Source: Sagittula stellata E-37 | GTDB taxonomy: Bacteria; Pseudomonadota; Alphaproteobacteria; Rhodobacterales; Rhodobacteraceae | Assembly (NCBI RefSeq): GCF_039724765.1 | Contig: NZ_CP155730.1 | Location: 310,001 to 374,000, forward strand | DNA: 64,000 bases | Direction: 5' to 3' | Shown here: positions 3,055 to 24,947 of the stretch, piece by piece | How the letters are laid out: every line of letters starts with the position of its first letter | Position numbering within the stretch: position 1 is the first letter of the stretch | Made by a program: the position numbers and the translations under genes | The notes under the pieces: generated by a model | Told to the model about the DNA's origin: nothing | The model's input: only the letters and a program-made list of their open reading frames with translations | The model's database searches: none

Positions 3055-4272
3055 ATGAGAAATCTCGGGTTTGCGATGATGTTCGGCCATATTTTTTTTG
3101 CGCCCGGCGCCTTAGCCCAATCACAAATCTCCGATGAGTGTCGCGCCATTGTTGACCGTTCAATTGGTTCTTTAGAGGGCGGAATTTATACGATTTCTGC
3201 CGCTGAGCTGTTGCGACAAGTAAACGAATGCGTTGCCTCAATGGCCTCACAGAGCGGCAATGGGGCATCGTCGAAATGCGAGGCGGACCTGCAGACTGCT
3301 TACAACGAAATCGCCCTACTAAAGGCAGACTTAAGTTTACTGGAAGAAGATGCCGGCATTTTTACGAGCGAATTGAAGCAACGGGAACAGCAGGTCACGC
3401 TATTGTCGATGGACCTCTCAAACACTGAAGAGCAAAACGACGTGCTGAAGGGAGAGTTGGACACGGCCGAAGCCGCGCTTGATACAGCGCGCACAGACCT
3501 TCAAGACGCTTTGAGCCAAGGACGCGAGAACCAGCGATCGATGTCGCGAATTCAGCGCACGGTAGCCGCCCGGCTTGAAGGTTTGGACATTGCAGTAAAC
3601 GAAGATGACGATACCGTCGAACTCTTGTCGCTCCTATTAAGCACATTGGAAGCCCAGCCCAAAAGCCCAAGAACGCCACTGCCCCCAGTCGACACAAGTG
3701 ACTTGAACTGTGAGGCATTCGGCTTTGCAGATTTCGTGGCCGTCCCACCAAAACTATATGACCTCTCTGTGGGCGACCTGTCCGAATATCTAAAGCAAGT
3801 CGACGCAAGCAATGTCGAGATCGACCAAGGATTTTGCGTTCAGCGCAAAGATGTCACCAACGCGGAATTCAAAGCTTTCTTCGACGACCTATCCAACGGT
3901 CACCGCGATGCTTTAGACCTAGGAGCTTGGACACCAATCGGCCGAGACTCCGATTCCGCAACATCTCTATCCTACACGCAGGCCGTCGCCTACGCTGATT
4001 GGCTATCAACAAGTCATGACGAAACGGTCTCGCTGCCGACCCGGGATCAGTGGTTCGCCGCTCTCGCCGTTTCTACCCGCTTGTCGAACGGCGACTTAGA
4101 GCGAAGCCTGAAATTCGAAACGATGGAATGGATTAACGCGTCGCCATGCGACGTGGGATACAACCAAGTACTCGGACTAGCGGAACGATCAACCCGTTGG
4201 GGCCCAGAGGCTTGTTTGGATGAGAACCTTCAATCCCCAACCCTTGGCTTCCGCGTTGTGGTACAGCCATGA
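3055..4272 (+). CDS. Exported coiled-coil protein with C-terminal FGE/sulfatase-modifying-factor fold (TagR-like)
   Basis: Predicted periplasmic protein of 405 residues. The ATG at 3055 has an AGGGGA ribosome site and starts a clean signal peptide (MRNLGFAMMFGHIFFAPGAL, cut near AQS). The upstream in-frame ATG at 2977 would bury it. A long heptad-like acidic region (about residues 75-190) follows. The C-terminal domain (about 260-405) has the FGE pattern VTNAEFKAFF … SYTQAVAYADWL … LPTRDQW … MEWINA … LGFRVV. I cannot match the copper-binding Cys pair of true formylglycine-generating enzyme, so a structural or sensor role is likely. TagR, an FGE-fold regulator of T6SS, is the closest known precedent. 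The stop overlaps the next start (ATGA). Confidence 0.75.
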   Translation: MRNLGFAMMFGHIFFAPGALAQSQISDECRAIVDRSIGSLEGGIYTISAAELLRQVNECVASMASQSGNGASSKCEADLQTAYNEIALLKADLSLLEEDAGIFTSELKQREQQVTLLSMDLSNTEEQNDVLKGELDTAEAALDTARTDLQDALSQGRENQRSMSRIQRTVAARLEGLDIAVNEDDDTVELLSLLLSTLEAQPKSPRTPLPPVDTSDLNCEAFGFADFVAVPPKLYDLSVGDLSEYLKQVDASNVEIDQGFCVQRKDVTNAEFKAFFDDLSNGHRDALDLGAWTPIGRDSDSATSLSYTQAVAYADWLSTSHDETVSLPTRDQWFAALAVSTRLSNGDLERSLKFETMEWINASPCDVGYNQVLGLAERSTRWGPEACLDENLQSPTLGFRVVVQP

Positions 4273-7200
4273 AGTTGAAGCTTACTACCCCCTGCGCGTA
4301 CCTGACAGCGTTGTTTTTCGGTGCCGCCGCGACACCTGGCCTTACGCAGGATGAGCCGCTCTATCGAGGCGTGAAAGACGGTGTTGTATCCGGTTACCCG
4401 ATCGACTTCAGCCATTGCGCCGGGCTTACCGAGTTCGGCCTGGCGAACAATTCGGTACTGAAAGAAGATCGCAATTTCACTCGTTACGCGCTGCGGTTGC
4501 ACTCAGGGCACGAACTGAGTGTTCGTAGAACGTATTGGTCTCAGATCAGCAATCGCGGCGATACCAGGGACGATGTCAGATCTGTCGTGGAAATGGTGGT
4601 CTATGAGGAAGGCTCGCTGCAACCTATTCCCCTTATCCAAGCGCGACGCGGTCGCGGCTTTTCTTACCTGCCAGTGTGTGCAGAGGAGCCAATGGTTCCA
4701 ACCCGACCCGACCAATATCCCTCGGCTGCATTCGGCCTGGGGATCAACGCGGATAAAAAAGACGAGCTTCGCAGCTTCTTGGGTGGCGGCAAACCGCTTT
4801 ACCTGGCAGGCCGGTTGCGCCTGCCGGAAGGCGAACAGTTAACCTTTAGCCAGTTGTGGCGAAACACACGCGCGGCCCTTGAAACTCAGCGGCTTGGATT
4901 GCCCTTTGATGTGACACTGACTGTTCTTGGCCAAAAGGCTGACTCGGAACCGGGCATTGGAATCGTCGAGTGGACGGTCCGGGATGAGCAATCTCGCTTT
5001 GCGACACCGGTTGATTTCAACCGGTGCCTCGGTGCCACCGGGCCAGAGCCGGTAACCACGGATAATATGTACAGCGTGATCGACCTCGGCTTTCGAATTG
5101 ATCCAGATACGATACAGTTCTGGGAAGACGACGGCGAGCCTACCGCTTTCATGCCGTTAAATCTTGTTTTACGAAGTGGAATGCCACCCTTTTTGGCGAC
5201 CGACGTTGTCCGCGTAAGTGATGACGCCGGCGGACAGCAAACCTATATGCCTATCTGCATAGGCGACAGGCCCTTACCCACAGAATCGCCAGAACTTGCC
5301 AAAAAAAGACCATTCAACATCGGGGCCGAGAAATTGGCAGCCTACCGAAAAGATAATCCGATTGTCACCTTGAAATCTGGGAACCTCGAAGCTCTTACGC
5401 CCGACGATATCGCTCCCTCGATTGTGACGGTCCGGAAAACCGACGACAAAACTGAAGACGCTATTCTCATCGAGGCATGGGCCGGTGGCAGTCTTGACAG
5501 TTGGATTGCCTTGATGCTGCGCCAGGCCCAGGAACCCGGGTTCGAGGCGAAAGTACCAAAGCCACTTTTCTTGGATTTTCCCACGTTTCCGGAATCCTTA
5601 GATATTGCGTTCGCAGAGACGTACAATATCGAGGTCGCGACCAACGCAGTAACGGAAGCCGCTGGCGGCGGGCAGATATCGCCCGAACCAACGGGCACAG
5701 CTCCAACGGAACGTGACACGGATGACACGCCCGGAAGATCCGAAACTGTGGTTGAAACCACTGTTGAGACGCTAACCGCAGGAACCGATACCGGCGTGAT
5801 GGATACTGCCGTTGCTGACACCGATGTGACAGACGCTGTCACAGGCGACACCCAACTTGGGGCCGAAACAGAAGAACCTGAACCGCCAACGCCAGCCGCG
5901 CCCGTGCGCGAAGACGAATACATCCTAATTGCGAACGATGAAGCGACCCGCACGTTATTAGCTGATTTGGGTGATCGTCTTGGGTTGGCCGGCGATGATT
6001 TTCAGCCCTGCCAGCGCAAGCCGGAAACAGAGGCGATCTATCCCGACGGTTTTTTCGTGTTCGATTGCACTAATGCCAAAAAACCGCCTTTCCTGCGCAT
6101 AAGCAGTCCGCAGGCTTCTTTCCAGAAGATAACCCTGACGCAGAATGCTCTACAAATCAGCGCTGAGGACCTCGTCTTTTCGCAGGGTAATCGTTTGCAA
6201 CTGCAGATTGCTCGTCCATCAGCGCCCAGTGCTTTGGCAGTAACCCCTGCCCCCTTCAGCTTTAGGGTGCTCGAAAATGCAACTTTAGCGGCTCCGGTTC
6301 TGCCGTTCCCCGTAGATCTCGTTGTCTCTTCAAGTTCGGCTGAGGCTTTGGACGAAATCACCGAAAAGTGCAGTGCAGGCCCGTCGGACGGTTTCAGGAC
6401 AGGCTGCATAATCTACCCAGTCCCTGATGCCATCAAGGACCCGAGGCGGATCAACGGATGCGGAGTCGTCATAGATTTAAAGCGGGTGCCAACTACACAC
6501 GGCTGCATTGTTCCACCTTCAGCGAATGCGCCGCGTGTGACCTACTTTTTGGATGGCCATCCAGATCAGCCGCTTAGCTTAACATCCGCGGAAATGGTGT
6601 ACTTGATCGAGCATTCGAGCGACGCCGAACGGCGCCCAGTGAAGTCTCCTGACATTATTATCTCGCAACTGACAATCGACCGCTCGCAGGTTCAATTGAC
6701 CGGACGCGGCATGACCGCCGACGTATACGAAGCGGCCAACTGTGGCGGAGCGCCGTCGCAACAGATTGCCGTACCCACCGAGACGGGCACGGTCGCTCTT
6801 AAAGGCGACATCTCCTTGCCTGTCGTGATGCAAATTCATTCGTCCGATGGTGCCCAGACAAGATGCTTGAAGGTCGAAGCAGCCAGCCGGGATACGGCAT
6901 TCATTCAACTCGAAGAGAAAGATCTACGCAAAGCTATGTCCGTTATTCTTCTGCGCCAAGACGAGTTCTTTGGGAACTCCGCGCAGCGCTTCAGAGCTAT
7001 GGAAGAACTGGTCACCGGGATCGCGTTGCGACGGGGCTTACATCGTTTGCTTGTGTATAAAATGACTAGCCAGGACGAGATTGGCGAACCACTTTTTGAT
7101 GGATCAAAATACGTAGCAGGCGATCAGCAGGCTGCCTTCGATTTGGCGGGCGTTCAGAGTGACCTCATTTTCCAGCAACGCTCGACTAACAATGTGGTGT

Positions 7201-7475
7201 CCGACCTTGCCCAGTTCCAGACCACGTATGAGGAACTTTCGCCCGAAAGCATCTACATTTTCGCCTCTTCCGAAGCAGCAGACTTCTTTACGGCGAATTC
7301 CCAGGTTCCTGGCCTTTGGGTCGCCCAAGGGACGGGCTTCTACATCTTTACCGATGGCAAGTGCGAAGCTTGGCGTGCGGAAGTGGGCGCAACGAGGTGC
7401 TTTGACCTTAAAAATGCCGGGAATGATCCGAATTTCGTAGACGCGTCATTGGCTGACATACCGAGGGGTGATTGA
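4269..7475 (+). CDS. Large exported protein of unknown function with internal duplication
   Basis: The protein has 1068 residues with an N-terminal signal peptide (hydrophobic 10-24, cleavage near GLTQ-DE). I recognise no full-length family. Two related blocks stand out: residues 44-140 begin PIDFSHC and end YLPVCAEEP, and residues 247-332 begin PVDFNRC and end YMPICIGD. This suggests a duplicated domain closed by a disulfide. Residues 476-546 form a Thr/Asp/Glu-rich linker. The last 160 residues alternate hydrophobic strands and helices (AMSVILLRQDEFFG … SIYIFASSEAADFF) and could be a degenerate vWA-like fold without MIDAS; that is inference. It is coupled by ATGA to the FGE gene and lies one base ahead of the vWA gene. 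Confidence 0.7.
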   Translation: MKLKLTTPCAYLTALFFGAAATPGLTQDEPLYRGVKDGVVSGYPIDFSHCAGLTEFGLANNSVLKEDRNFTRYALRLHSGHELSVRRTYWSQISNRGDTRDDVRSVVEMVVYEEGSLQPIPLIQARRGRGFSYLPVCAEEPMVPTRPDQYPSAAFGLGINADKKDELRSFLGGGKPLYLAGRLRLPEGEQLTFSQLWRNTRAALETQRLGLPFDVTLTVLGQKADSEPGIGIVEWTVRDEQSRFATPVDFNRCLGATGPEPVTTDNMYSVIDLGFRIDPDTIQFWEDDGEPTAFMPLNLVLRSGMPPFLATDVVRVSDDAGGQQTYMPICIGDRPLPTESPELAKKRPFNIGAEKLAAYRKDNPIVTLKSGNLEALTPDDIAPSIVTVRKTDDKTEDAILIEAWAGGSLDSWIALMLRQAQEPGFEAKVPKPLFLDFPTFPESLDIAFAETYNIEVATNAVTEAAGGGQISPEPTGTAPTERDTDDTPGRSETVVETTVETLTAGTDTGVMDTAVADTDVTDAVTGDTQLGAETEEPEPPTPAAPVREDEYILIANDEATRTLLADLGDRLGLAGDDFQPCQRKPETEAIYPDGFFVFDCTNAKKPPFLRISSPQASFQKITLTQNALQISAEDLVFSQGNRLQLQIARPSAPSALAVTPAPFSFRVLENATLAAPVLPFPVDLVVSSSSAEALDEITEKCSAGPSDGFRTGCIIYPVPDAIKDPRRINGCGVVIDLKRVPTTHGCIVPPSANAPRVTYFLDGHPDQPLSLTSAEMVYLIEHSSDAERRPVKSPDIIISQLTIDRSQVQLTGRGMTADVYEAANCGGAPSQQIAVPTETGTVALKGDISLPVVMQIHSSDGAQTRCLKVEAASRDTAFIQLEEKDLRKAMSVILLRQDEFFGNSAQRFRAMEELVTGIALRRGLHRLLVYKMTSQDEIGEPLFDGSKYVAGDQQAAFDLAGVQSDLIFQQRSTNNVVSDLAQFQTTYEELSPESIYIFASSEAADFFTANSQVPGLWVAQGTGFYIFTDGKCEAWRAEVGATRCFDLKNAGNDPNFVDASLADIPRGD

Positions 7476-7476
7476 T

Positions 7477-10098
7477 ATGCAATTTCACCAAACTTTAGGC
7501 GCAGCGTTGCTTCTCTCATTGTTCTTCGCTCAGCACGCACATGCGCGATCGCAAGACTGTGTCAATAGCCCGGAGTACAAAAACATATTGGAGCAAAGCG
7601 AGGGTAGCACGTTGTTCCGGCCATTTTCAGCCATTGTGGCTTTGGACGACGTTCCGACTTTCGTAGCGGACAACTCCGCACAGGAAAGCGGGGTGCGGCT
7701 TTCCTTCAATCAAACTGTGCAAATTCTCGAGCAGGGCAGAAACAGAGTACTGATCCGAGCAAAGACGAAAACCGGGACGGAAGAAGTTTGGGCCTTGCCC
7801 AACCAATTGCATTGCGGCAACCGCACGATTCGCAAGCCGGGCAGTGTGGAATTTAAGGCGTTCGTAAAGGGGCGCTTTGAAATCAATGCCGAGGTGCCGC
7901 CACGTTATGCGCAAACCCGCCAAGGCATCTCTTGCGAAGCGGCAGGACCGGGATGTGTCGCAATTCGCCCCTTCGATATATTCTTTGTTGCGGACCGTGA
8001 CGGGAACGAGGGCGCACATGATGAACGTTTTCTACTTTCGCGCAAGGCCAATCTATTTGAAGGTGAGGACGCATTGCTCGGCTGGGTCGAAAGCACACAG
8101 ATCGAGTTGTGGGATACAGCAGTTGGTCTTCGCGCGGTGCAAGAACCACAACATAACAAACCGCTCTGCGCATACGAAAGTGTCGAGGACGCCGTTAGCG
8201 GCGAAAATTGCATTGAAGGTGCCTACGGCCCAAGCTGGTTAACCGACGCATCCCGTATGATGGTGCTAGATTCCGACACTGGACAAGAAGGGGACGGGTT
8301 CCCCGTCGTCGAGGTGCTTGCCGAAGTTGGATCCGTCATCGACGTCACGCCAAGTCAGACGGTGACCGTTGAAACTCCGGTGGCCTCACAAGACCAACCA
8401 GAGGACGGCACGATTACGCGTGCTGAGTTGACACAACGGGTGACGCACCATGACTACGTTGACGTCCAATTCATCATTGATGGTACCAGAAGCATGGAAG
8501 CCGCATTTGACGCCATCAAAGGCAGCGGCGGACGTGCCGGGGTCGTTCAGACACTGAAGGAACAAATTGCGTCCGAACTATCCGGTTCCAAGGTCAGGTT
8601 CGGGTTTACGATCTATGGCGACCGCAGCCGCAACAAAGACAACCCGTATGGCGATTCCGGTCTTGGAGCTAGCTATTTCATTAACCAACGAAGTGGATGC
8701 GGGAGTGCCATCGATGACCGGGAAATTGCGCGAAACGCGCGCGATTTCCAACAACGCTTCAACAGACTGGAGATCAAAAAAGTTGTACAATCTCCAGATT
8801 CTGAAATCGCGAAAAAGACTGGCTCTGACGACTGGGAAGAAAATGTAGCAGGCGGGTTAGAGGCAGGATTCGCTGCGATCGAGGCGTGCCCTTGGCATCG
8901 AAAAATTGTCATATTGATCGGTGACAGCGGCTACTCGCGGGATAACCAAGTCGCGCATGGATTTCGCGACGCGCCGAGTTTCAGCACCATATTGTCGGAC
9001 ATCCAAGAGAGCAGAACAGATCCCCTTGCGCCGCCTGTCATGGTGCTTGGTGTGCAAATGCCACCCAGCGCACAGTCCGCGAACTTTGACAGGGCCTACG
9101 CACTGTTCCCTGATCAGGTGGCAGATCTGATTGCCGCTGTGTCCCCGGAGACAGGCGACTTTTATAAGGTACCATCGACAGGGGGCGCCGCTGGTTCGAT
9201 CAGCGACAGGATCGGAGCTATGCTAAAAGGGCAGGCGTCAACCTTGGCCTTTAAGTGCGCTCTGGAGAACAATACCGGTATTTCCTTCTCTGTGGAATGC
9301 GGTGGAGGAGAACCCCCGGCACCAGCCCCAACCACCGTTGTGACAACCACGAGCGCCGCGGCAAAGGTTGAGACAGTCTCTGGAGAAGATGTGAAAAGCC
9401 AGGCAGGCGGTGTACCATTTAACATGGCAACCTTGCAAAACCGGCTTGCAGCGCTTCGTTGTTCGGATTGCTCTGGCATTCAGGGTGAGGTGGAAGGATT
9501 GATCCTCTATGTCCGACTTGATCCTGACGTATTTCAACCGGAAGTATTGATGACAGACGAGGATTTGAGCTCTTGGAAGCACATCGCAAACCGGCTTGCG
9601 CAAGAGGAAAAGCTATCGGATCAGCGCCGGAACGTGCAGCTTATCCTGCTTGGCAGCGCAGAAGGACAGCTTGGCATCAGATGGCGGAACTCTAACGCAA
9701 AATTGCACGAATTCTTGGGTGCGGCCACTGGTTTACCGGACCTCTTTCAAACACCCATCCTCAGCTACAAGTACCGCGACTTCCAAAGCGAGGCGCTTGT
9801 TGGGAATTGCGAACTGAGACTGTTGCAGGAATTCGCGGAACAATCGAGTGAAATGCTAGAGATCATACAAAATGGCAGGCGCCCGGTGCCAGTCGTTTCG
9901 GGCATTACCGGGGGATGCGATTTCATGTCTGCGGCCGGCGAAGCGATACCCCGGTATGCCAAAGTGGCGGAGGAACCGTTCGGCACCTGGGTCAACCCAA
10001 AGACCGGCGCACCTCAGAAGACAGGTTACCGATACGAGGGTTTGCGGGACGGCGACACCGAGAACATTTATTGGATTCCGAACTGGGCCCTTCCATGA
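7477..10098 (+). CDS. Exported von Willebrand factor A domain protein (PpkA C-terminal-like)
   Basis: The protein has 873 residues and a signal peptide ending HAHA-RS. The ATG at 7477 sits about 8 bases after GAGGGG, which makes it a better start than the GTG at 7468. Two N-terminal SH3-like beta blocks (about 50-225, ending LLGWVESTQIELWDTAVGLR) precede a vWA domain at about 328-590. The MIDAS reads D-G-T-R-S (FIIDGTRSM) and a later strand reads IVILIGDSGYS, so metal binding looks plausible. The block order SH3-like 'GW…' then 'FIIDxTxSM' resembles the periplasmic part of PpkA, the T6SS threonine kinase, but no kinase domain is present. The stop overlaps the ATPase start. Confidence 0.8.
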   Translation: MQFHQTLGAALLLSLFFAQHAHARSQDCVNSPEYKNILEQSEGSTLFRPFSAIVALDDVPTFVADNSAQESGVRLSFNQTVQILEQGRNRVLIRAKTKTGTEEVWALPNQLHCGNRTIRKPGSVEFKAFVKGRFEINAEVPPRYAQTRQGISCEAAGPGCVAIRPFDIFFVADRDGNEGAHDERFLLSRKANLFEGEDALLGWVESTQIELWDTAVGLRAVQEPQHNKPLCAYESVEDAVSGENCIEGAYGPSWLTDASRMMVLDSDTGQEGDGFPVVEVLAEVGSVIDVTPSQTVTVETPVASQDQPEDGTITRAELTQRVTHHDYVDVQFIIDGTRSMEAAFDAIKGSGGRAGVVQTLKEQIASELSGSKVRFGFTIYGDRSRNKDNPYGDSGLGASYFINQRSGCGSAIDDREIARNARDFQQRFNRLEIKKVVQSPDSEIAKKTGSDDWEENVAGGLEAGFAAIEACPWHRKIVILIGDSGYSRDNQVAHGFRDAPSFSTILSDIQESRTDPLAPPVMVLGVQMPPSAQSANFDRAYALFPDQVADLIAAVSPETGDFYKVPSTGGAAGSISDRIGAMLKGQASTLAFKCALENNTGISFSVECGGGEPPAPAPTTVVTTTSAAAKVETVSGEDVKSQAGGVPFNMATLQNRLAALRCSDCSGIQGEVEGLILYVRLDPDVFQPEVLMTDEDLSSWKHIANRLAQEEKLSDQRRNVQLILLGSAEGQLGIRWRNSNAKLHEFLGAATGLPDLFQTPILSYKYRDFQSEALVGNCELRLLQEFAEQSSEMLEIIQNGRRPVPVVSGITGGCDFMSAAGEAIPRYAKVAEEPFGTWVNPKTGAPQKTGYRYEGLRDGDTENIYWIPNWALP

Positions 10099-10979
10099 CT
10101 CAAATCAAAGATTGGGGCTTCGTTCTGAGGGATGTAAAATTCGGATGGTCTAAAGCCAACCCTGTCGCCGAGTTCACAGATTTCCAAGCCGTGTTCAGCG
10201 ATCACAATTCCGGGATGCAAATCATCGGCCCGTCGGGAGTCGGAAAAACCACATTTTTATTTACGCTGTCCGGACTGCTTTGGCCATTTTCTGGTGCTGT
10301 CGCTTTCGTTGCCCCGAACGGCGAGCGGTTTGGCTGGGGTCCCGAAGCTGAAACCTACCTTCCAGCCGATATGATCATGGATTTGAGGGGGTTAGAAAGA
10401 CTGCGGAAAAAGCACTTTGGCTTCATGTTCCAGAATGCGGACCTGCTGCCGTTTGTAACTGTTGGGCAAGGTATACAAATGCTCTTGGACTCTCATCCGC
10501 CGGAGCAGCGTCAACGCACGCTGTGCGAAGTGCTGAATGTGGCCGCTTCAATCCTTGATGCGGAGAAGGAGGCTCCAGATTTTGACGCGAGCGCCCAAGA
10601 CGTACTTCCGAAGCAGGGGGTTTTTGGAAAGTATCCCTACCAGTTGTCTGGCGGGCAACGTCAACGAGCAAGCCTGCTCCGCGCAATTGCAAGCGGCCCG
10701 ACTGTGATCTTTGCTGACGAACCAGTGTCCAGCCTCGACCCGGCCTTACGCTCGAAGGTTCTCGTCGCTTTGCGTAGGTGGCGCGACAAGGGACTTGGCA
10801 CGCGGGCACTGATCTGGGTCACGCATGCGCCGGAAGACGCCTACGATTTGATGCCGGACCACAGGTTGGACTTTAATCACCCGAACGGCGTGTGCGGTCC
10901 AATTAGCGCCTGGGACCAGCTGACAGAAGGCGAGAACTGGCGCCTCGATATTAGTAAGCGCGCAGGGGCCGATGCTTAA
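10095..10979 (+). CDS. ABC transporter ATPase (LolD/TagT-type)
   Basis: Cytosolic ATPase of 294 residues. Walker A is GPSGVGKTT (45-53), the Q-loop FQN is at 112-114, the signature LSGGQRQR is at 184-191, Walker B FADEP follows with SSLDP, and the H-loop is WVTHAP. The start ATG at 10095 overlaps the stop of the vWA gene (ATGA); the frame is open further upstream but that part is a shadow. It is somewhat longer than LolD, with an insert around 140-178. With the next gene it forms a MacB/LolCDE-type transporter. The same partners (ATPase, FtsX-type permease, FGE protein) occur as TagT/TagS/TagR in T6SS loci. Confidence 0.93.
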   Translation: MTQIKDWGFVLRDVKFGWSKANPVAEFTDFQAVFSDHNSGMQIIGPSGVGKTTFLFTLSGLLWPFSGAVAFVAPNGERFGWGPEAETYLPADMIMDLRGLERLRKKHFGFMFQNADLLPFVTVGQGIQMLLDSHPPEQRQRTLCEVLNVAASILDAEKEAPDFDASAQDVLPKQGVFGKYPYQLSGGQRQRASLLRAIASGPTVIFADEPVSSLDPALRSKVLVALRRWRDKGLGTRALIWVTHAPEDAYDLMPDHRLDFNHPNGVCGPISAWDQLTEGENWRLDISKRAGADA

Positions 10980-14545: not shown

Positions 14546-14596
14546 GCCTATGACTCTTAGGCGACTCAACAGGGTGAGATAAGAAAGGAAGTCTCA

Positions 14597-16425: not shown

Positions 16426-16876
16426 AAATAGCGACAGTGGGTTGCCCCCTGCATGGAGCGGGATGATGGACGCGATGTTCTGTGCTATGGGTGCCTTCAT
16501 TGTCCTACTGGCCCTGAGTCTAATACGAGAGTCCAGTGCGGAGCACAAACCAACGCTTCCAGACCTGATGATTACCTGCCAACCCCAGCCCGGACCAGAC
16601 ATCCGCCTGACCAGCAGACTCACCAAGGAAAGCAACTTGATATCTTTTGATGCTTTGCCAGAAGCGCTTGGCGCTGTAGAGCAAGACGCGCAGGGATTAC
16701 TTCAGATTGCAGTTCTCTTGGGTGACGATGCATTCCGCTGCAACAGTGCTGTTGAGCGGGAACTACGCGACACACCCAGCATAGTGGCACGGAGTGTCTT
16801 CTACCTTCCTTTTACTGCTGACAGTCCGCAGGCAGACGACCTTCGGTCCGCGCTGACAGTCGACGAGGCCGAATGA
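16406..16876 (+). CDS. Single-TM ExbD/TolR-like partner, short
   Basis: The protein has 156 residues and overlaps the ExbB-like gene by 20 bases. A short cytosolic N-terminus is followed by one TM (MMDAMFCAMGAFIVLLALSL) with an Asp at the membrane entry (GMMDAMF), as in the ExbD/TolR motor helix. The periplasmic part is about 115 residues and acidic at the end. Sequence support for the ExbD family is topology and context only. Confidence 0.6.
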   Translation: MRLVQTENSDSGLPPAWSGMMDAMFCAMGAFIVLLALSLIRESSAEHKPTLPDLMITCQPQPGPDIRLTSRLTKESNLISFDALPEALGAVEQDAQGLLQIAVLLGDDAFRCNSAVERELRDTPSIVARSVFYLPFTADSPQADDLRSALTVDEAE

Positions 16877-16877
16877 G

Positions 16878-17549: not shown

Positions 17550-18697
17550 TGTTTCGTTTGATAACCCATGCGCTGATTGCGTCCTGTTTTGTACACCCTG
17601 CGCTGGCGAATTGTCATTCTGGGGCTGTCGGGGATCCCGGCCAGCCTATGGTTGAAGTCCCCGCAGGCACAGGACAGGCCAAGGCGACTAAAAACGGTTC
17701 GGACAACCAACCGCGGCTACGACTTTGGCCGGCGCCGCCAGAATCATCCGCGGCTGTTCGGATCTCGACATTAGACCTAGAAGACGAGATTGAGCAGTTT
17801 CGAACAGAAACAATAGCTGCCTTAATGGCCGTGTCGGCGCCAGAACGTGATCGGCAAGAAGAAATAGCAAACGAAAGTCCTTCAGAAGATACAGGATGTG
17901 CAGAGGTTCTCGCGTCAGGTGATACTGCGCTTATGCGGTATCCGAACCTTGCGGTAGGCGTTGCCCCGGAAATTCGCGCGCGCTTCAGAGCCGCTGCCAT
18001 GGTTGCCGGGGTACCAGCAAAGTTAGATGTACTCGGCCAGATTTTATCCGTGAGCGATGATCCTATGGTTCGCCACCGCGCGCTTTATGAAATGGCACGC
18101 ACGCATCTTCGGGCGGGCGAACCACTGGACTCGCCCCGGCTACGCGCTTGGATCCAGAATTTGCAGGCACTTAGCGAGCAGTTGGGCCATGAGTTGGACC
18201 CCAGGCTTCAAGCCGATACCGACTATCTCACGGCATTTGTCTTGCTAAGAAGAGGGCAAACAGAGCCCGCGCTGCGTTACATTGACCGCGCCAATCAACG
18301 CGACCCGAACTTCTTGCGCGCGCTCTATCTCTCGGTTGAAGCGAGGATGCAAAGTCTGTCTTTGGCCAACATACCGGGAGCGAAAGTATCGCGTTGCGAT
18401 GAAAATAGTGCTCATCTTTTGCGAAGTCTTCGGCGAATAGAAGCCCTGACCAAAGACCGTAAACAGTTGATCTATTTGGCCGAGTTCATGGCAGAATTGC
18501 CTGGAACGGCCCAAGCCCGCGATTATGTATTAACTGCGCTCCTCCTGCGCATAGGCCGCGAAGAAAGTGCTCGCGCGATTGGCAACAAGATTTTGATTTC
18601 ACCAGATAACGGTGACCGTTGCATAGCGCTTTTTCAACAAGCAACCGCAGAGCTTTTTGAGACCTATCAGGAGGCCGGCCTATCGGCCAAACAGTGA
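17546..18697 (+). CDS. Exported helical-repeat (TPR-like) protein
   Basis: The protein has 383 residues. The ATG at 17546 overlaps the previous stop. The signal peptide is MMFRLITHALIASCFVHPAL, cut near ANC. A Pro-rich linker (about 25-75) is followed by a helical repeat domain from about 150 on (RHRALYEMARTHLRAGEPLD, YLTAFVLLRRGQTEPALRYI, YVLTALLLRIGREESARAIG), which fits TPR-like pairs of helices. It is probably a periplasmic docking protein; no enzyme motif seen. Confidence 0.65.
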   Translation: MMFRLITHALIASCFVHPALANCHSGAVGDPGQPMVEVPAGTGQAKATKNGSDNQPRLRLWPAPPESSAAVRISTLDLEDEIEQFRTETIAALMAVSAPERDRQEEIANESPSEDTGCAEVLASGDTALMRYPNLAVGVAPEIRARFRAAAMVAGVPAKLDVLGQILSVSDDPMVRHRALYEMARTHLRAGEPLDSPRLRAWIQNLQALSEQLGHELDPRLQADTDYLTAFVLLRRGQTEPALRYIDRANQRDPNFLRALYLSVEARMQSLSLANIPGAKVSRCDENSAHLLRSLRRIEALTKDRKQLIYLAEFMAELPGTAQARDYVLTALLLRIGREESARAIGNKILISPDNGDRCIALFQQATAELFETYQEAGLSAKQ

Positions 18698-18698
18698 A

Positions 18699-19319
18699 AT
18701 GACATCTGCCAATTTGTCCCAAGTTTTCTCGGTTTTGCTGACGCTAATACCGCTAACAGCCTTCGCGACGTGTTCGTCAAGAGATCACAGTTGGAAGCGC
18801 CTGGCCGTTTGGTGCTTGGCTGCGCTCGTGCTGTTGATTCTTAATGACCTTGGGGATGTACTACGCGCGGAGAGGGATAGGGTTCGGTCGCCGGTTGACT
18901 TTGGGCGACTCAGCATAGCCCTATTCCCGGGCGTATCGGTTCTTACCGGTTCATTGCTTCAACGCGAATTCAAGCAAATGGGTATATTCTTTGGCCTAGT
19001 GTCTGGGTGTGTTGCAGCCACTCTTGGTCTAGTAATGGTACACACGGTTAACTCAGCCCTGTCGGATTTTTCAGTAACGCCACTTCCACAACAACTTTTG
19101 GGAATTCTTAGCCTTGGTATGGGTGTTGTCATTTCGCTCGCCGTAGGGCGAACTATGAATGCGTCTTCAGTTGGCATTTCTCTATTTGCACTCGCGGTAC
19201 CTTCGGGTTTGGTTTGGCTCGATTACGGCACAACGCTCGTAAATACGGTGGCATTCTGCTTGTCTTTAACTGCGTCCGCGACCTTGTTCGGTCAGCTTTC
19301 GTACAAGCCTCTGCATTAA
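18699..19319 (+). CDS. Polytopic inner-membrane protein, unknown
   Basis: The protein has 206 residues with about six TM segments (VFSVLLTLIPLTAFA, LAVWCLAALVLLILN, LSIALFPGVSVLTG, IFFGLVSGCVAATLGLVMV, LLGILSLGMGVVISLAVG, then GISLFALAVPSGLVWL with a further hydrophobic stretch). The start ATG at 18699 follows the previous stop by one base. The stop overlaps the stop of the convergent minus-strand gene by 4 bases (19316-19319). It is the last gene of the plus-strand operon. No family recognised. Confidence 0.65.
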   Translation: MTSANLSQVFSVLLTLIPLTAFATCSSRDHSWKRLAVWCLAALVLLILNDLGDVLRAERDRVRSPVDFGRLSIALFPGVSVLTGSLLQREFKQMGIFFGLVSGCVAATLGLVMVHTVNSALSDFSVTPLPQQLLGILSLGMGVVISLAVGRTMNASSVGISLFALAVPSGLVWLDYGTTLVNTVAFCLSLTASATLFGQLSYKPLH

Positions 19320-19765
19320 ATGCGAGTAAGCTGCAGGCTTTTCACATGCGAGTGGTCTAGCGTTTCAATGGACAGCCTGAGTTCTTTGACAAAGGCTTTG
19401 TTGCATTCGTCCTTGTTTCGCGAATCCGAACAAACGAGGGAAAATACATCTCGAGCCGCGAGACCATCCGTGTCACTGTTGGTGGGCAAGTATGGTAAAC
19501 TAACCCAATTTCCCTCGATATCTGGTTGTGATCCAGAGAAGATTGGTTGTATTTGAACCTGTCTGACTAAGCGGGTCGGATCTAATTGAACGATAAAGAG
19601 CGAACGCCCCTTTAACGTTATCTCAACACCGGCAACTACGACAGTTGGGTAGGTCGTTTCTACCGAGGCCATTTCTTGGTCGCGAAGATCTAGATTGCCA
19701 ACTTGATACGACACTGCTGTCACTGCGGCGCCGAGCGCCAAGAACCAAAAAAATAGTGAGCGCAT
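19316..19765 (-). CDS. Small membrane-anchored or exported protein, unknown
   Basis: The protein has 149 residues. The ATG at 19765 is preceded by AGGAG at good spacing, so it is preferred to the ATGs at 19792 and 19780. The hydrophobic N-terminus (MRSLFFWFLALGAAVTAVSY) is a signal or anchor. The rest looks beta-rich (TYPTVVVAGVEITLKGRSLF) with two Cys late in the chain. It lies in the same orientation as the caspase-like gene cluster beyond the IS block and may be the tail of that minus-strand operon, cut off by IS insertion. Confidence 0.55.
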   Translation of the reverse strand: MRSLFFWFLALGAAVTAVSYQVGNLDLRDQEMASVETTYPTVVVAGVEITLKGRSLFIVQLDPTRLVRQVQIQPIFSGSQPDIEGNWVSLPYLPTNSDTDGLAARDVFSLVCSDSRNKDECNKAFVKELRLSIETLDHSHVKSLQLTRI

Positions 19766-19987
19766 GGCCTGCTCCTGCATTGTCTGTTTCACTTAAATCG
19801 AAAAAGCAAGGCAAGAATAGGGCAAAACACTTAATGCGAGGTAAGCGGTGCGCTGTTGATTTCCACCCAGAACTGAATAGCCCCTGACCTGCCCCCCGCG
19901 AAATCCCTCACCGTGATGTAGAGTTTGCGCCAGCTTGGTCCGACCCCGAACCTTCTACCGCCCTTGGCGAGAGTTTTCCGGCTTTGA

Positions 19988-20812
19988 TCAGGGTAACAGG
20001 CTGGTGATGTCCCCTGATTTCGTCAGCGTGATCGGGGTCTTGTTGCCGATCGCGCCATGTGGCCGTTCCTCGTTTTAGTATCTACGCCAAGCCTCCAACT
20101 TTTCGGCCGCATCTGCAAGCGTCAGGAACCAAGGGGCGTTCAGGCACTCGGCACGGAACCGGCCATTGAACGCTTCAATGAAAGCATTGTCTGTTGGCTT
20201 TCCCGGCCGTGAGAAGTCGAGCGTGACACCGCGCTGATAGGCCCAGAGGTCCATGTCGCGGGAGATGAACTCGCTGCCCTGATCGACCCGGATCGTCTTG
20301 GGATAGCCCGATCTGCGGCACACCCGGTCCAGTGTCGCCACGACATCCTCGCCGCGATAGCTGAACCGCGCGTCGAGCACCGGAACGTATCGCGAGAACG
20401 TGTCCACGACCGTCAAGACCCGAAGCTTCCTGCCCGTCGCCAGCTGGTCATGGACAAAATCCATCGCCCAGACATCGTTCGGCCCGACGGCTTCGGCACG
20501 GTCATCGCGCAGCTTGGCCTTCACCCGCCGCTTCGGCGTCTTGTTCCTGAGCTGCATGCCCAACTCCCTGTAAATGCGATAGACTTTCTTGATGTTGATA
20601 CCCCAGCCCTCGCGGTCCAAGAGCACATGAACCCGGCGATAGCCGTAGCGCACACGTGTCTCGCAGATCTCCTTGATCCGCTTTTCCACGGCAGCCTGAT
20701 CGACGCGGCGGGATTTGTAGTGGAACGTCGAGCGATCAAATCCGATGGCGCCACACGCCGTCCGGATCGAGACCGCCCAATCGCTGCACATCCCGCGCAC
20801 CAGTTCGCGCAT
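19988..20812 (-). pseudogene. IS3 element A transposase OrfB with premature stop
   Basis: DDE integrase-type transposase. The catalytic residues are present in WAMDFVHDQ, IRVDQGSEF and DNAFIEAFNGRFR. At 20075-20077 the frame hits TAA within …AWRRY-stop-NEERPHGAIG; related proteins read YYNEERPH, so a single TAC-to-TAA change is likely. The frame then continues to a normal TGA at 19988. About 28 C-terminal residues, including the RPH..G motif, are lost, so activity is doubtful. Confidence 0.8.
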
Positions 20813-20823
20813 CCGACCAGGCT

Positions 20824-21090
20824 TCAGATCTTTCGCCGGATGACATCCTGCAACATCTCACGGTCCAGCGTCAGATCGGCCACGATCTTCTTCAGCCGGC
20901 CGTTCTCATCCTCGAGCTGCTTCAACCGCTTCATCTCCGTCGGCAACAGACCCGCATACTTCTTCTTCCAGTTGAAGTAGGTGGCCTGGCTGATGCCCGC
21001 CTTGCGGCAGATCTCCGCAACCGGCGTGCCCTCTTCGCCCTGCTTGATGATGAACGCCTTCTGCGCGTCCGAAAACTTCGATGCCTTCAT
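20824..21090 (-). CDS. IS3 element A OrfA (HTH DNA-binding)
   Basis: The protein has 88 residues from the ATG at 21090 (MKASKFSDAQKAFIIKQGEE). An HTH (PVAEICRKAGISQATYFNWK) is followed by a leucine-zipper-like C-terminus (MKRLKQLEDENGRLKKIVAD) and ends DVIRRKI. This is the standard OrfA of the IS407-like branch of IS3. OrfB is normally made by frameshifting from it. Confidence 0.85.
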   Translation of the reverse strand: MKASKFSDAQKAFIIKQGEEGTPVAEICRKAGISQATYFNWKKKYAGLLPTEMKRLKQLEDENGRLKKIVADLTLDREMLQDVIRRKI

Positions 21091-21187
21091 CTGATTCCGC
21101 TCCTCTCCCAGCCGGGAAATCATAGCGGAAAACTCCACCTTCAAACGGCCCAGAATACGGGGATCAGATCAAACGAGGAGACGGATT

Positions 21188-21454
21188 ATGAAGCGATCGA
21201 GGTTCAGCGAGGAGCAGATCATCGCGATGCTGAAGGAGCAGGAGGCCGGCATGGCGACGGCCGATGTCTGCCGCAAGCACGGGGTGAGTTCTGCGACCTT
21301 CTACAAATACAAGGCGAAGTATGGCGGGCTCGAGGTGTCGGATGCGCGACGGCTGAGGGCGCTCGAGGACGAGAACGGCAAGCCCAAGAAGCTGCTGGCC
21401 GAGGCCATGCTGGACAACGCGATCCTGAAGGATGTCGCGGCAAAAAAATGGTAG
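21188..21454 (+). CDS. IS3 element B OrfA
   Basis: The protein has 88 residues (MKRSRFSEEQIIAMLKEQEA …). It has an HTH (ATADVCRKHGVSSATFYKYK) and a zipper region (ARRLRALEDENGKPKKLLAE). It is followed by AAAAAAATGG at the orfA/orfB junction, the kind of A-run used for programmed frameshifting in IS3 elements. Confidence 0.85.
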   Translation: MKRSRFSEEQIIAMLKEQEAGMATADVCRKHGVSSATFYKYKAKYGGLEVSDARRLRALEDENGKPKKLLAEAMLDNAILKDVAAKKW

Positions 21455-22344
21455 CGCCCGGTGTCAAGCGGGAAGCGGTGGCCCACGTCGTTGCGACACA
21501 CGGGGTGAGCCAGCGCCGGGCGTGCCAGGCCCTGGCCGTGGATCGGTCGAGCGTGCGCTATCGCAGCGTCCGCCCTGACGATGCCGGGGCAAGGACAGCG
21601 ATGAAGGCCGTGGCGGCAGAGCGACGGCGCTTCGGCTACCGCCGCATCCACATCTGCTTGAGCGGCAGTGGATCGTGATGAACCTCAAGAAGCTGCGGCG
21701 GCTCTATCGGGAGGAGAAGCTCCAGGTGCGTCGCAGGGGCGGCCGGAAGCGGGCCCTCGGCACGCGTCGGCCGATGCTGCTGCCAGATGCGCCGAACATC
21801 CGCTGGAGCCTCGACTTCGTCAGCGACGCGCTGACGGACGGACGCCGGTTCCGGGTGCTGGCCGTGGTCGACGACTACAGCCGCGAGTGCCTGGCGCTGG
21901 TGGCGGACACGTCGCTGTCGGGACATCGCGTCGCCCGGGAGCTCGACGCCGTGATCGCCCGGCGGGGGCGCCCTGCCATGGTGGTCAGCGACAACGACAC
22001 GGAGCTGACCTCGATGGCGATCCTGTCGTGGTGCCAGCGCACCGGCGTCGAATGGCACTACATCGCGCCGGGCAAGCCGATGCAAAACGGCTTCGTCGAG
22101 AGCTTCAACGGGCGCTTCCGGGACGAGCTGTTGAAAGAGACACTGTTCTCGACCCTCGGCGAGGCCCGGCAGCAAATCCGTGCCTGGCAGGACGACTACA
22201 CCCACCACCGCCCGCATTCCGGCCTCGGGAACATGACCCCGGCTGAGTTCATGGCAATGAGGGGCTGGAAATGCGCGCCGCGTAGTCCCAGAAATCAACC
22301 CGCGGATTCTCCGATTGGCCGGAGGAGAGGCGGGTGTCAGGTCA
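21448..22344 (+). pseudogene. IS3 element B transposase OrfB, frameshifted
   Basis: The N-terminal part reads in one frame to [11 protein letters not shown] (stop 21676-21678). The rest reads in another frame from [16 protein letters not shown] onward. A one-base loss near 21654 explains it (expected RRIHILLERQGIVMNL). The catalytic blocks remain: [32 protein letters not shown]. The frame has no stop before the element ends and runs into the IS110 fragment, giving a chimeric ORF to 22631. Confidence 0.75.
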
Positions 22345-22631
22345 GTGAGCAGGCCGCCGCGCTGGCGGGTCTGGCTCCGATCGCACATGACAGTGGCGCC
22401 ATGCGCGGCAAGCGCGCCATCGGAGGCGGCCGCCGACTGTTACGACACGTGATGTTCCAGGCGGCGCTCGTCGCCAGCCATCACAACCCGCTCCTGAAAA
22501 TCTTCGCCGACCGTCTTCGTGCCGCCGGAAAACCACACAAGGTTGTCATCACAGCAGTCGCCCGCAAACTCGTCACAATCGCAAACGCGATTGGCAAATC
22601 TCGTCTCAAATGGTCCCATCAGGCCGCATGA
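22345..22631 (+). pseudogene. IS110-family transposase C-terminal fragment
   Basis: The translation [40 protein letters not shown] and [20 protein letters not shown] matches the IS116/IS110/IS902 C-terminal domain (LAGLAP…DSG…RGKR.I.GGR; ALVA..HNP). About 95 codons remain, with the natural stop at 22629-22631. The N-terminal RuvC-like half is absent. Confidence 0.8.
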
Positions 22632-22709: not shown

Positions 22710-23873
22710 TTAACGTCGGTCGAACTCTCCAATGCCAGCCTTTTCTGGGAGCAATTGGACTGCAGCAACGTCTCCCGAAATGGTGGAAGATCGGGAGTAA
22801 GGCTTCCATGGGGCTTCCCAATCGGGCTGGAAACCTTCCTCCATCGCCGACCTGAGCTGTGCGAAACTGGGTGCAGAGTTTTCCCTCAGGGCCTTGATTA
22901 GCAAAGCTCCTAGCCTGCCCATGCTTTGTCCCTCCTGTGTGGGCGACAGGAACTTTGGTATCGGAATGTCTGTTGTAAGAGTGCCGGGTTTGGCAGCATA
23001 AAAAACTAAGCCATCAGACACGATGTCGTCCCACATACCGCGCACGATGCCGCTAAAGAATGCGGCATCGACTACGATGTCCTGTTCAATAGTGGCGTAA
23101 CAATTGTCGAATAAAATAACAAAAGGCACCGGAGGGTTGCCCTCTGGCGGGAAGCCTATTTGCTCGCGCGATTGCTCCTCTCTCTGCATCAACTCCTGCG
23201 CACGCATCGCGGTTTCTAACCCGGATAGTGGTCGCGTTAGATCGGGCATGATCTGCGAGGGTAGGAAATCGTCCATATACCGCATACTATCATGAGTCCG
23301 GTAATTCACCGCTGCCGAAAGGATGTCTCCGTTCCAGATTGTTTTTTGCACCAAAGCACTTACGCCCAACTGGCTGCGTTCTCTAGGGTTGACCACGGCA
23401 TCGCCGGGCTGGACAAACAGTATATCGAATTGGGGGTCGCCGTAGGCGTGGCCCATAATATATACCAGCAAACGGGGGGATTGAGCGTTATCGGCACGCA
23501 TACGTTTTTTGATATCGATAAGTGCATTTATGATATCTTCGCGTGTCACGACGTGGCCAGATTTGCCTTCCGAAAGCCGAGAAGTCAGCACGATCCCATA
23601 AGACGCACCGCTGGCGATCAACTCTTCCGCAACCATTTGGGCTGAAATTTCCGCCGAACGCAACTCTATAAGATCATCGTTACCCTTGACATACTCGCCG
23701 ATACCGATCGACAGGAAGTACAATCCGCTTGCCTCAATCTCGGGAGAGGGGCGGTTTTGCGCCAGCGAAGGCCCAGCAAGAAGGGCGACACAGACGGCGA
23801 GACCACGGATCAGTCGGGCAGTAATGCAAAACAATGCGAAACCTCCATCGCGAAAGACTTTTTGACTAACCAC
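22710..23873 (-). CDS. Exported caspase-like (peptidase C14 fold) protein
   Basis: The protein has 387 residues. A hydrophobic segment (IRGLAVCVALLAGPSLAQ, residues 22-39) is a signal peptide, so this caspase fold should act in the periplasm. The core runs from GLYFLSIGIGEYV through a strand ending YIMGHAYGD (candidate catalytic His142) to VPFVILFDNCYAT (candidate Cys258), which is the caspase His/Cys dyad order. The ATG at 23873 overlaps the upstream gene by 64 bases; a later TTG start near the hydrophobic segment is possible. It is the last gene of the minus-strand operon before the IS block, and shares compartment and composition with the plus-strand envelope operon. Confidence 0.78.
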   Translation of the reverse strand: MVSQKVFRDGGFALFCITARLIRGLAVCVALLAGPSLAQNRPSPEIEASGLYFLSIGIGEYVKGNDDLIELRSAEISAQMVAEELIASGASYGIVLTSRLSEGKSGHVVTREDIINALIDIKKRMRADNAQSPRLLVYIMGHAYGDPQFDILFVQPGDAVVNPRERSQLGVSALVQKTIWNGDILSAAVNYRTHDSMRYMDDFLPSQIMPDLTRPLSGLETAMRAQELMQREEQSREQIGFPPEGNPPVPFVILFDNCYATIEQDIVVDAAFFSGIVRGMWDDIVSDGLVFYAAKPGTLTTDIPIPKFLSPTQEGQSMGRLGALLIKALRENSAPSFAQLRSAMEEGFQPDWEAPWKPYSRSSTISGDVAAVQLLPEKAGIGEFDRR

Positions 23874-24424
23874 GCCCTAAAACCAATTCTCTGGTCGACA
23901 TGGTGTTTGATCTGAGCTTCCAGCGCAGCCAAGTCCTGTATAATGGCTGCAAAGGGTGTTAGCATAAGAGGCACGCCTTCATCCAGTATTCGGCGCGGAG
24001 GCTTCGCTCCGACTGCAAAATCCTTTAGATCCCTTTCGACTTGGTCTAGGCATGGATCGAAATCAACCAACTGATTTGGCACCATGTAGCGCAACTCTTC
24101 ATAGATCTCGTATTGTCTTCTCTGATCCGAGCTAGGTCGTTCTCTCAGCGGCGTTTGAGAAGCGCTCTGTGAAACTTCAATTTTGTACACGGAATCTCGG
24201 GCTTTCTTCAGCAAAACCAGCGTGCCACTCATTTCGTAGCGAACCTGTGCACGATGATCGAGATAGAAGGTGAACAATGTAAGCAGAAGCCCGCCAATGC
24301 TGACCAGCAAACCGGCGTCACGCAAGAGTCCAAGAATCCAAGTCGGTCTTTTGCGCCAAATCTGTCTACACAGACCGAGCACCGTTTCGCCTTCGAATCC
24401 CGTATCTGGCTCATTCTCCGCCAT
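23810..24424 (-). CDS. Single-TM membrane protein, unknown
   Basis: The protein has 204 residues from the ATG at 24424, which overlaps the upstream stop by 14 bases; an upstream ATG at 24478 would lie deep in that gene. One TM (AGLLVSIGGLLLTLFTFYL, about 45-65) follows a positively charged cytosolic stretch (RQIWRKRPTW), placing the bulk in the periplasm. The rest is helical with two Cys. No family recognised. It sits between an exported protein and the caspase-like gene in one operon. Confidence 0.6.
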   Translation of the reverse strand: MAENEPDTGFEGETVLGLCRQIWRKRPTWILGLLRDAGLLVSIGGLLLTLFTFYLDHRAQVRYEMSGTLVLLKKARDSVYKIEVSQSASQTPLRERPSSDQRRQYEIYEELRYMVPNQLVDFDPCLDQVERDLKDFAVGAKPPRRILDEGVPLMLTPFAAIIQDLAALEAQIKHHVDQRIGFRAWLVKKSFAMEVSHCFALLPD

Positions 24425-24947
24425 CGGGAACCCATCTGTGAATGGTTCGGTACCGCCCCGTTGAAAGGTTCGGCACATCCGTCATTAGTATCATAACGCA
24501 TGCACTGATGACATTCGGGTCTTTCACGAAACGGGCCGAGTACACCCGACTCTGGTTTCCAGCACTGATATGAAGTTCCGGCAAGTTTTCTGCCAGTGAC
24601 CAGGATAGAACAGCCGTCTTTCCCAGATGGGCTCTGCATCTGGCAAGGTTAGTCGCGGCCAGGGTCATGTCATGACCAACCAACACCTGTTCGACCACAC
24701 CACCATCGAGGAAACGAATGTTAGTTGCAAGACATTCCGTCGGAACCGGCTGCGACGGAGTTGGGGCCAAGATGGTTTGGGCATATTGAAGACTCCAATA
24801 ACCCCTTTCCCCACAGGGTGGTGATACGTAACAAACTTTCGAATCTCCAAAACAAATGTCTTCTTGGGCGAAAGCCGCACCATAGAGCAATAGTGTGCAG
24901 CTAAAGAGGATGAAATAGATCACCTTTTTTTCGGTCCAGCAAGCCAT
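24411..24947 (-). CDS. Small exported Cys-containing protein, unknown
   Basis: The protein has 178 residues. The ATG at 24947 follows AAGGAGAC and gives a signal peptide (EKKVIYFILFSCTLLLYGAA, cleavage AFA-QE). Six Cys occur in the mature chain, four of them within the first 45 residues (DICFGDSKVCYVSPPCGERG). It is the first gene of the minus-strand operon leading to the caspase-like gene. No family recognised. Confidence 0.58.
   Translation of the reverse strand: MACWTEKKVIYFILFSCTLLLYGAAFAQEDICFGDSKVCYVSPPCGERGYWSLQYAQTILAPTPSQPVPTECLATNIRFLDGGVVEQVLVGHDMTLAATNLARCRAHLGKTAVLSWSLAENLPELHISAGNQSRVYSARFVKDPNVISACVMILMTDVPNLSTGRYRTIHRWVPDGGE

Follow-up and report, generated by a model that had tools for sequence, protein, structure and literature searches.

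A predicted motor-coupled variant of the Tag-type envelope module, carried as mobile cargo in Sagittula stellata E-37

A 64,000-nucleotide stretch of the Sagittula stellata E-37 genome (contig NZ_CP155730.1, positions 310,001–374,000; hereafter the window) carries, at 3055–19319, a single operon of 14 packed plus-strand open reading frames (ORFs) without inner stops, encoding what we take to be a two-module envelope system (Table 1). Consecutive ORFs overlap or lie 1 base apart, the exceptions being gaps of 79, 51 and 51 bases, and their order is pseudo-FGE, P2, vWA, ABC, FtsX, P6, P7, P8, P9, ExbB, ExbD1, ExbD2, TPR and P14. Module 1, the putative sensor, comprises the pseudo-FGE, the vWA protein, the ABC ATPase and the FtsX-type permease, here together with P2; module 2, the putative motor, comprises ExbB, the ExbD1/ExbD2 pair, exported helical proteins, the TPR protein and P14. 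The two modules have been joined recurrently, and module 1 also leads a separate life. A preliminary description of this DNA had listed most of these parts: FGE, ABC and ExbB score above their Pfam cut-offs, FtsX, TPR and vWA below them, and the ExbD pair is recognized by place, a transmembrane (TM) segment and an Asp, while a caspase-like protein on that list no longer belongs to it (below).

Table 1. Features of the window and the basis of their assignment (G410, a relative with the operon's genes except P2; z, similarity score defined in the text)
Feature	Position	Strand	Basis or remark
Type IV secretion system (T4SS) coupling protein	41–1699		left of operon
Pseudo-FGE: exported coiled-coil protein, C-terminal FGE (SUMF1-like) domain	3055–4272	+	Pfam PF03781
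P2, 1,068-amino-acid exported protein	4269–7475	+	no Pfam match
vWA, large exported protein	7477–10098	+	MIDAS-like motif
ABC ATPase	10095–10979	+	PF00005, 65.4 bits
FtsX-like permease	10972–12972	+	PF02687 and TM layout
P6, exported, mainly helical	13052–13831	+	z 6.8 to G410 protein in same place
P7, exported, mainly helical	13883–14545	+	by place only; z 1.0 to G410 P7
P8, exported, mainly helical	14597–15226	+	z 5.7 to G410 P8
P9, small exported helical protein	15213–15584	+	by place
ExbB/MotA-type channel	15571–16425	+	PF01618
ExbD1-like, single TM with Asp	16406–16876	+	place, TM, Asp
ExbD2-like, single TM with Asp	16878–17549	+	place, TM, Asp
Exported TPR protein	17546–18697	+	TPR_14, E 0.0011, under cut-off
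P14, polytopic membrane protein after TPR	18699–19319	+	about 5 TM
158-amino-acid single-TM ORF	19316–19792	−	convergent with operon end
IS3-type transposase set	20075–21144	−	rve domain tested and matched here
IS3-type transposase set	21188–22631	+	
Caspase-like operon, three genes	22710–25004	−	G+C 51.5%; between IS3-type and IS5-like elements
Putative caspase-like protein, exported	22710–23873	−	GHAYG (141), DNCY (256)
IS5-like remnant	25062–25891		by-eye ORF reading
VirB6-, VirB11-, VirB10-, VirB9- and VirB4-type genes	26078–35777		right of operon; Pfam TrbL, T2SSE, TrbI, CagX, CagE_TrbE_VirB

The FGE domain scores 29.1 bits against a cut-off of 23.3. The catalytic Cys motif of FGE, GG[ST][WYF], is absent in all 12 FGE proteins inspected, which favours a role in binding over one in catalysis. 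P2 has weak similarity (E 6e-5) to a neighbouring protein in the alphaproteobacterial genome G422 (G numbers denote genomes), and a large exported gene stands in the corresponding place ahead of the vWA gene in G007, G346, G409, G266, G356 and G125; no counterpart was seen in G028, G410 or G099. The sole Pfam match of the vWA protein is a weak one to TssR_VWA (E 0.042), and two relatives match Pfam VWA at E 8e-5 and 3e-3, both under its cut-off. It carries a MIDAS-like DGTRS at residue 338 and is 24% identical to the G422 protein over 759 aligned columns (E 8e-30). The ABC ATPase has Walker A, LSGG, Walker B and H-loop motifs and 38% identity to its G422 counterpart (E 2e-36).

The permease reaches 21.1 bits for PF02687, under the cut-off of 25.5, and a TM scan gives one TM segment, a loop of about 480 residues and then three TM segments. 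Such a layout is that of type VII pairs, where movement outside the membrane is powered by ATP; the portion of the literature drawn on here names FtsEX, LolCDE and MacB as examples. The last two bring up envelope transport of a lipid, lipoprotein or polymer, in which the ABC/FtsX pair would extract its substrate from the inner membrane like LolCDE and ExbB/ExbD would drive outward transfer. NCBIfam does match the ABC protein to LolD and DevA, among others, but these matches are generic (178 families) and Pfam recognized no outer-membrane protein or adaptor in the operon; we consider transport quite improbable.

Relatives of the operon were sought at several scales. Searches of 5.8 billion proteins with FtsX, the vWA protein and a four-row vWA profile returned the window's own protein only, among the roughly 8,000 best word-sharing candidates, and plasmid searches with FtsX (E 1e-5), vWA (0.01), ABC (1e-20) and the G346 vWA (1e-4) gave no match; the plasmid search with ExbB gave two cyanobacterial relatives only. 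In whole genomes, the vWA protein found one relative in 60 other genomes, a two-row vWA profile three in 393 others, and a five-row profile matched 45 of 394, the own genome counted. We inspected 22 of these 45 neighbourhoods, all of Rhodobacteraceae (the window, G007, G346, G409 and 18 more) with hidden Markov models (HMMs) built here and gene lists. An ExbB-type gene lies in the fetched stretch of nine (the window, G007, G346, G409, G266, G028, G356, G410 and G099), SrfB and SrfC are both present in eight, and two (G289 and G017) have vWA-ABC-FtsX-FGE without ExbB or SrfB/SrfC. A kinase gene adjoins the vWA gene in two more (G198, Pkinase 147 bits; G078, by eye), and the G125 locus ends at a contig end. 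The clusters in G198 and G078 (L073 and L088), which read ABC-FtsX-FGE-Ser/Thr kinase-vWA, have a split PpkA-like arrangement.

The nine motor-type loci differ in layout. G266 and G356 have a common order, P6-P7-ExbB-ExbD1-ExbD2-TPR-P14-ABC/FtsX-CC-P2-vWA (CC, coiled-coil protein), their proteins being 25–58% identical over the aligned parts. In G346 and G409 the corresponding genes, and one more of 383–392 amino acids, are split over three blocks, and in G007 they form two divergent blocks. G410 reads P6-P7-P8-P9-ExbB-ExbD1-ExbD2-TPR-P14-vWA-ABC-FtsX-FGE and has the four helical exported proteins in common with the window. In G099 about 7 kb separate the FGE gene from those for ExbB and ExbD1, which are on the opposite strand, so that the pairing of modules is only partial there, and no ExbD2 or TPR was found in its stretch. 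The same genome has a TIR-domain protein (46 bits; L078, 2916–4796) near the vWA gene of its FGE-vWA-ABC-FtsX cluster. The preliminary description had pictured a single multi-gene envelope system whose families use ATP and proton force; most of the gene set does recur, its homologues clustered rather than scattered and partly in order.

Within the motor module, ExbB is the best-marked protein. It scores 29.9 bits for PF01618 (MotA_ExbB; cut-off 22.9), BLAST against eight relatives gives E 8e-14 to 0.006, and its GFLGTVYGIS and AFDTT motifs recur as GT[VI]xG and AFxTT in all nine motor ExbBs; of three host ExbB rows, two read GIM with ALLATG or ALLATA and the third GMI with ALTTTA. An Asp at the start of the TM segment, as proton motors would have, is present by eye in 9/9 ExbD1 rows and 8/8 ExbD2 rows. 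Pfam gave no match for P2, ExbD1, ExbD2 or P14 and solely weak, sub-cut-off ones for P6–P9. The window's proteins were compared pairwise with those of relatives against shuffled controls, on a scale (z) on which off-diagonal pairs reach 3.9 and 4.4. The TPR piece of G028 is not among the rows used. Against G410, P6, P8, ExbD2 (z 16.6; E 7e-8 across nearly the full length) and TPR (z 11.0) alone stand out, against G409 TPR alone (13.3) and against G356 nothing. ExbD1 (z 3.6 to G410) is not above the highest off-diagonal value, and P9 has E 0.009 to a helical exported protein of G007 and z 2.0 to G410 P9, under both off-diagonal values. A hydrophobic protein also follows TPR, by eye, in G409, G266, G356, G028 and G410. 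In hhalign comparisons with the first three relatives, vWA (96%) and TPR (93%) alone stood out. The orthology of P7, P9, P14 and ExbD1 is assigned by place, that of ExbD1 also by its Asp.

A tolQ gene with two unlike tolR genes, a TPR gene and a vWA gene is also the set published for the PVC group, proposed in 2025, in the section of that paper used here, to encode force transducers (PMC12204202). The operon might likewise serve surface motility or adhesion, as an AglRQS/Glt-like device or one of this vWA type, with the vWA protein reaching the surface and the motor pulling. The SHLS motif of the N-terminal helix that tethers those proteins is, however, absent in 10/10 vWA proteins here, the TM scan of the window vWA found no internal TM segment above threshold, and section 8 of the paper makes no mention of FGE or ABC/FtsX for the PVC set; a force transducer of this kind seems to us improbable.

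Module 1 was also traced beyond the motor. The four-row vWA profile found matches in 14 of 289 genomes from Alphaproteobacteria of other families (own counted), and 10 of the 13 further loci were fetched. In nine of the ten an ABC gene adjoins the vWA gene and is followed by an ORF in the FtsX place; SrfB/SrfC were confirmed in three of these nine (G508, G434 and G542), with Pfam scores in G508 of 1041 bits for SrfB, 838 for Virul_Fac and 96 for FGE. In the tenth, G422, which is near to the window, P2-vWA-ABC-FtsX adjoins a Tad-like pilus locus (Tad by eye). An FGE domain suspected by eye at the C terminus of a 1,045-amino-acid G422 protein was dropped, there being no Pfam match and an hhalign value of 0.1%. 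In this G422 stretch (L034/L035), the Tad-like locus also encodes a protein of FHA-like type and a large one of kinase-like appearance by eye, without Pfam recognition.

Across the phylum, the vWA profile matched 57 of 299 genomes, and 20 loci from 19 genomes of other families were fetched, some stretches being short or ending with the contig. Three are Srf/FGE-type and 17 carry vWA-ABC-FtsX of the window kind; an HMM from the window and G422 permeases matched all 17 (E 1e-25 to 7e-37). An FGE gene (26.6–49.3 bits) stands just ahead of vWA in each of the five tested. HMMs found no motor gene in the 17 stretches, a lone ExbB match in G709, 13 kb off, reading as TolQ. Window-type and Srf-type vWA proteins align over 332 columns (hhalign 99.2%). 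FGE-vWA-ABC-FtsX thus exists as a separate four-gene module in other families, presumably Magnetococcia; the preliminary description's self-contained machine is not supported, its sensor half occurring without the motor in many genomes.

How the modules came together was examined in a tree of 42 ABC domains, 34 from clusters and 8 from host ABCs. The cluster rows include 11 from the 17 four-gene loci and, of Srf type, 8 out of 15 earlier ones and 3 new ones; the host rows are 8 out of 20, these being the strongest Pfam matches and not chosen LolD or FtsE proteins; G125, G198 and G078, whose Walker A did not match the pattern used, are excluded. The cluster ABCs stand apart from the host ABCs (support 100/98); in a quick tree with all 20 host ABCs the cluster-versus-host split had an SH-aLRT value of 92 and was not starred. 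The window ABC belongs with the four-gene type and G422 (100/97). Another clade (97/92) unites six further motor-type ABCs, and those of G410 and G099 fall inside the Srf/FGE clade (100/99). Mapped on this tree, the motor label needs four changes, and a single origin appears in 0% of 200 bootstrap trees. FtsX HMMs divide the loci in the same way; the motor therefore occurs with three sensor lineages. This recurrent joining, be it through swapping or through recruitment on several occasions, speaks most strongly for the modules working together, and that the two belong together is well supported.

The channel was placed in the same manner. The own genome has five MotA_ExbB matches. In a first ExbB tree, without host locus L096 (no usable row), the nine motor ExbBs stand opposite three host ones (SH-aLRT 96); with the two cyanobacterial ExbBs and one more TolQ added, the cyanobacterial pair joins the motor side (97/98), apart from four TolQ/ExbB rows. 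NCBIfam matches of the window ExbB are three ZorA models (E 0.004, far under the cut-off) and a holin model, with no TolQ/ExbB model among them; in PADLOC, a library of defence proteins only, it matches ten ZorA models (best E 4e-6) over the channel motif, residues 191–251, only. In the tree, the motor ExbB is apart from TolQ/ExbB and nearer to defence-linked motors. On the cyanobacterial plasmids (L182, 6566–9166; L183, 6518–9097) the ExbB-like gene is accompanied by genes for proteins of 153 and 231–236 amino acids, perhaps a motor, and these three-gene sets adjoin type III-B CRISPR/viperin or N-6 methylase/helicase genes, a defence setting. Compared with ExbD1 and ExbD2, the small proteins gave hhalign values of 13% and 1%, which leave kinship without support.

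The operon lies between a T4SS coupling protein gene, 88–93% identical to genes on several Rhodobacterales plasmids, and a run of VirB genes, and its G+C content is 54% against 63% in both flanks; it is therefore cargo in a conjugation locus, as the preliminary description held. Rfam gave zero matches across window positions 1–27000. The two convergent operons of about 18 genes that had been described are borne out in the 14-gene operon, as far as 19319; the second comprises three minus-strand genes flanked by insertion sequence (IS) elements and the 158-amino-acid ORF, for which BLAST gave no relative in the G007, G346 and G409 loci. The putative caspase-like protein carries GHAYG and DNCY, where the His/Cys dyad of a caspase fold might lie, and has no match in Pfam or PADLOC and no meaningful one in NCBIfam. 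Its structure model is poor (pLDDT 33.7), and among the best 50 of 483 Foldseek matches 22 are caspase chains, none with E ≤ 1e-3, the first three matches being dihydropteroate synthases. HMMs of this protein and its neighbours P17 and P18 matched 0/25 other loci and then 0/20 more, a protein search of 198 genomes found it in the own genome only and a plasmid search (E 0.01) gave no match. Sitting among IS elements and matched in none of 45 other loci, the caspase was dropped as a core part, contrary to the earlier assignment of its operon to the system: these genes are a second, separate piece.

An anti-invader device of the Zorya kind (anti-phage or anti-competitor) would read the same facts otherwise: the motor would detect envelope disturbance caused by phage or rivals and trigger changeable caspase-like or TIR effectors. 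The affinity of the window ExbB to ZorA, its nearest named channel family, and of the motor ExbBs to the defence-neighbouring cyanobacterial pair would suit this, as would the mobile location with its low G+C and the TIR protein in G099. Yet there is no OmpA-like ZorB (ExbD1 and ExbD2 being without Pfam match), a PADLOC scan of 10 of the 18 proteins matched no ZorC, ZorD or ZorE, the caspase is unlinked to the system elsewhere, and several motor loci lie, by eye, among housekeeping-type genes. We judge such a device unlikely, though its chance is not negligible.

With belief and doubt in balance, we propose instead that the operon encodes an envelope-surveillance machine with two energy sources, a Tag-type sensor in a variant coupled to a motor, whose two modules are exchangeable. 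Module 1 would be a Tag-type sensor/actuator whose periplasmic proteins bind something exposed upon envelope disturbance, and its type VII-like ABC/FtsX pair would relay conformational signals over the inner membrane, powered by ATP; module 2 would be a proton-driven motor pulling on or turning a periplasmic assembly. The use of ATP and protons and the periplasmic place are those expected of the protein families. As the motor stands in the place that a kinase/FHA/type VI secretion system (T6SS) or SrfB/SrfC holds in other module-1 clusters, the cell would answer damage locally and by reversible mechanical means: tethering, re-sealing or remodelling of the envelope. Pseudomonas requires tagQ and ppkA to respond to outer-membrane damage, which TagQRST-PpkA senses (PMC11881912, in the part drawn on), and tag genes with srfB/srfC, mostly without a T6SS, were reported in 2013 for Deltaproteobacteria (PMC3608642, likewise in part). 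By analogy with this damage response and these clusters we infer that module 1 is an envelope sensor of damage, the output of which would here be mechanical, a proton motor.

Kinship with the T6SS Tag/Ppk arm, already noted in the preliminary description, extends to FGE, vWA, ABC and FtsX, and the operon might simply be such an arm acting in trans on the genome's own T6SS. A VipB gene does lie on contig C4 (E 2e-116), and in the 40 kb around it HMMs match one ABC but no vWA, FtsX or FGE. Pfam recognized neither a kinase nor an FHA domain in the 18 cluster proteins scanned, however, and VipB, matched in four of the nine motor-type genomes, is unmatched in the other five (G346, G409, G028, G410 and G099). 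We also know of no Tag arm with ExbB/ExbD, which counts against this reading too. With VipB on another contig and absent from the matches of those five genomes, the cluster was dropped as a T6SS annex, and we leave a plain Tag arm a very small chance.

Several points weigh against the surveillance machine. FGE is present in just three of the nine motor-type loci (the window, G410 and G099), and G346 and G007 carry a coiled-coil protein without FGE match. P7, P9 and P14 agree with relatives by place only, P14 showing no sequence similarity to its G410 counterpart (z −0.2), and hhalign gave at most 7% for FtsX, P2, P6–P9, ExbD1 and ExbD2 against the first three relatives. The model of the window vWA protein, predicted with one homologue, has a pLDDT of 27 and offers no reliable structure. 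A single clade of the nine motor ExbBs is neither demonstrated by the tree nor rejected by the AU test (p-AU 0.259), and the branches of the window ABC and of several ExbBs were flagged as long. Finally, a role in conflict would instead suit the TIR and caspase-like neighbours.

A bolder version, tentative and to our minds doubtful, is that an undescribed class of machine, one portable envelope-sensing module (pseudo-FGE, vWA, type VII ABC) wired at least three times to a Zorya-like proton motor, forms a motor-driven, mobile envelope immune system against phage entry, contact weapons or membrane damage. Among open-licence papers, none that we found describes FGE-vWA-ABC-FtsX together with an ExbB/ExbD motor; already in print are the Tag arm, its srfB/srfC pairing and vWA beside tolQ, two tolR and TPR. 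The one weapon that the Tag arm is known to trigger is the T6SS, and the loci described here show the core of this arm to be a general envelope module whose partners are of several kinds, among them a proton motor resembling motors with links to phage defence. Should the pairing be functional, it would be a third answer, beside Tol/Ton and Zorya, to the coupling of inner-membrane energy with outer-membrane events.

Among known systems, the TagQRST-PpkA arm of the H1-T6SS is alike in placing an FGE-fold protein, a vWA, an ABC ATPase and an FtsX-type permease at the envelope (we take TagR to be the FGE-fold protein and TagT/TagS the ABC/FtsX pair); unlike it, the window operon has no adjoining kinase, FHA or T6SS and has an ExbB/ExbD motor. 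The SrfB/SrfC cluster also has vWA-ABC-FtsX-FGE in a row, with alignable vWA proteins, whereas the window operon has a motor and neither SrfB nor SrfC was found: HMMs from one SrfB and one SrfC match other loci and not the window, and a SrfB search of the own genome gave no match, in a search in which 0/14 controls matched. With the vWA force transducers, in the part of PMC12204202 considered, the operon has together one ExbB, two unlike ExbD proteins (by place, TM and Asp only), TPR and vWA, but its vWA is without SHLS and is accompanied by FGE, ABC and FtsX. Zorya motors are described, in the part of PMC11890865 considered, as 5:2 complexes that need ion flow. ZorA is the nearest named channel family to the window ExbB, for which we assume a 5:2 motor; unlike ZorAB, the window has two ExbD-like proteins without OmpA match and a short ExbB without a ZorA-type tail. 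The stand-alone FGE-vWA-ABC-FtsX operon differs in having no motor in the fetched stretches and no P2 by HMM, no further search for P2 having been made; it has the same genes in the same order and, with G422, the nearest ABC group and FtsX to those of the window, and if the pairing with the motor is functional it would be the smallest version in which to test what the Tag module senses.

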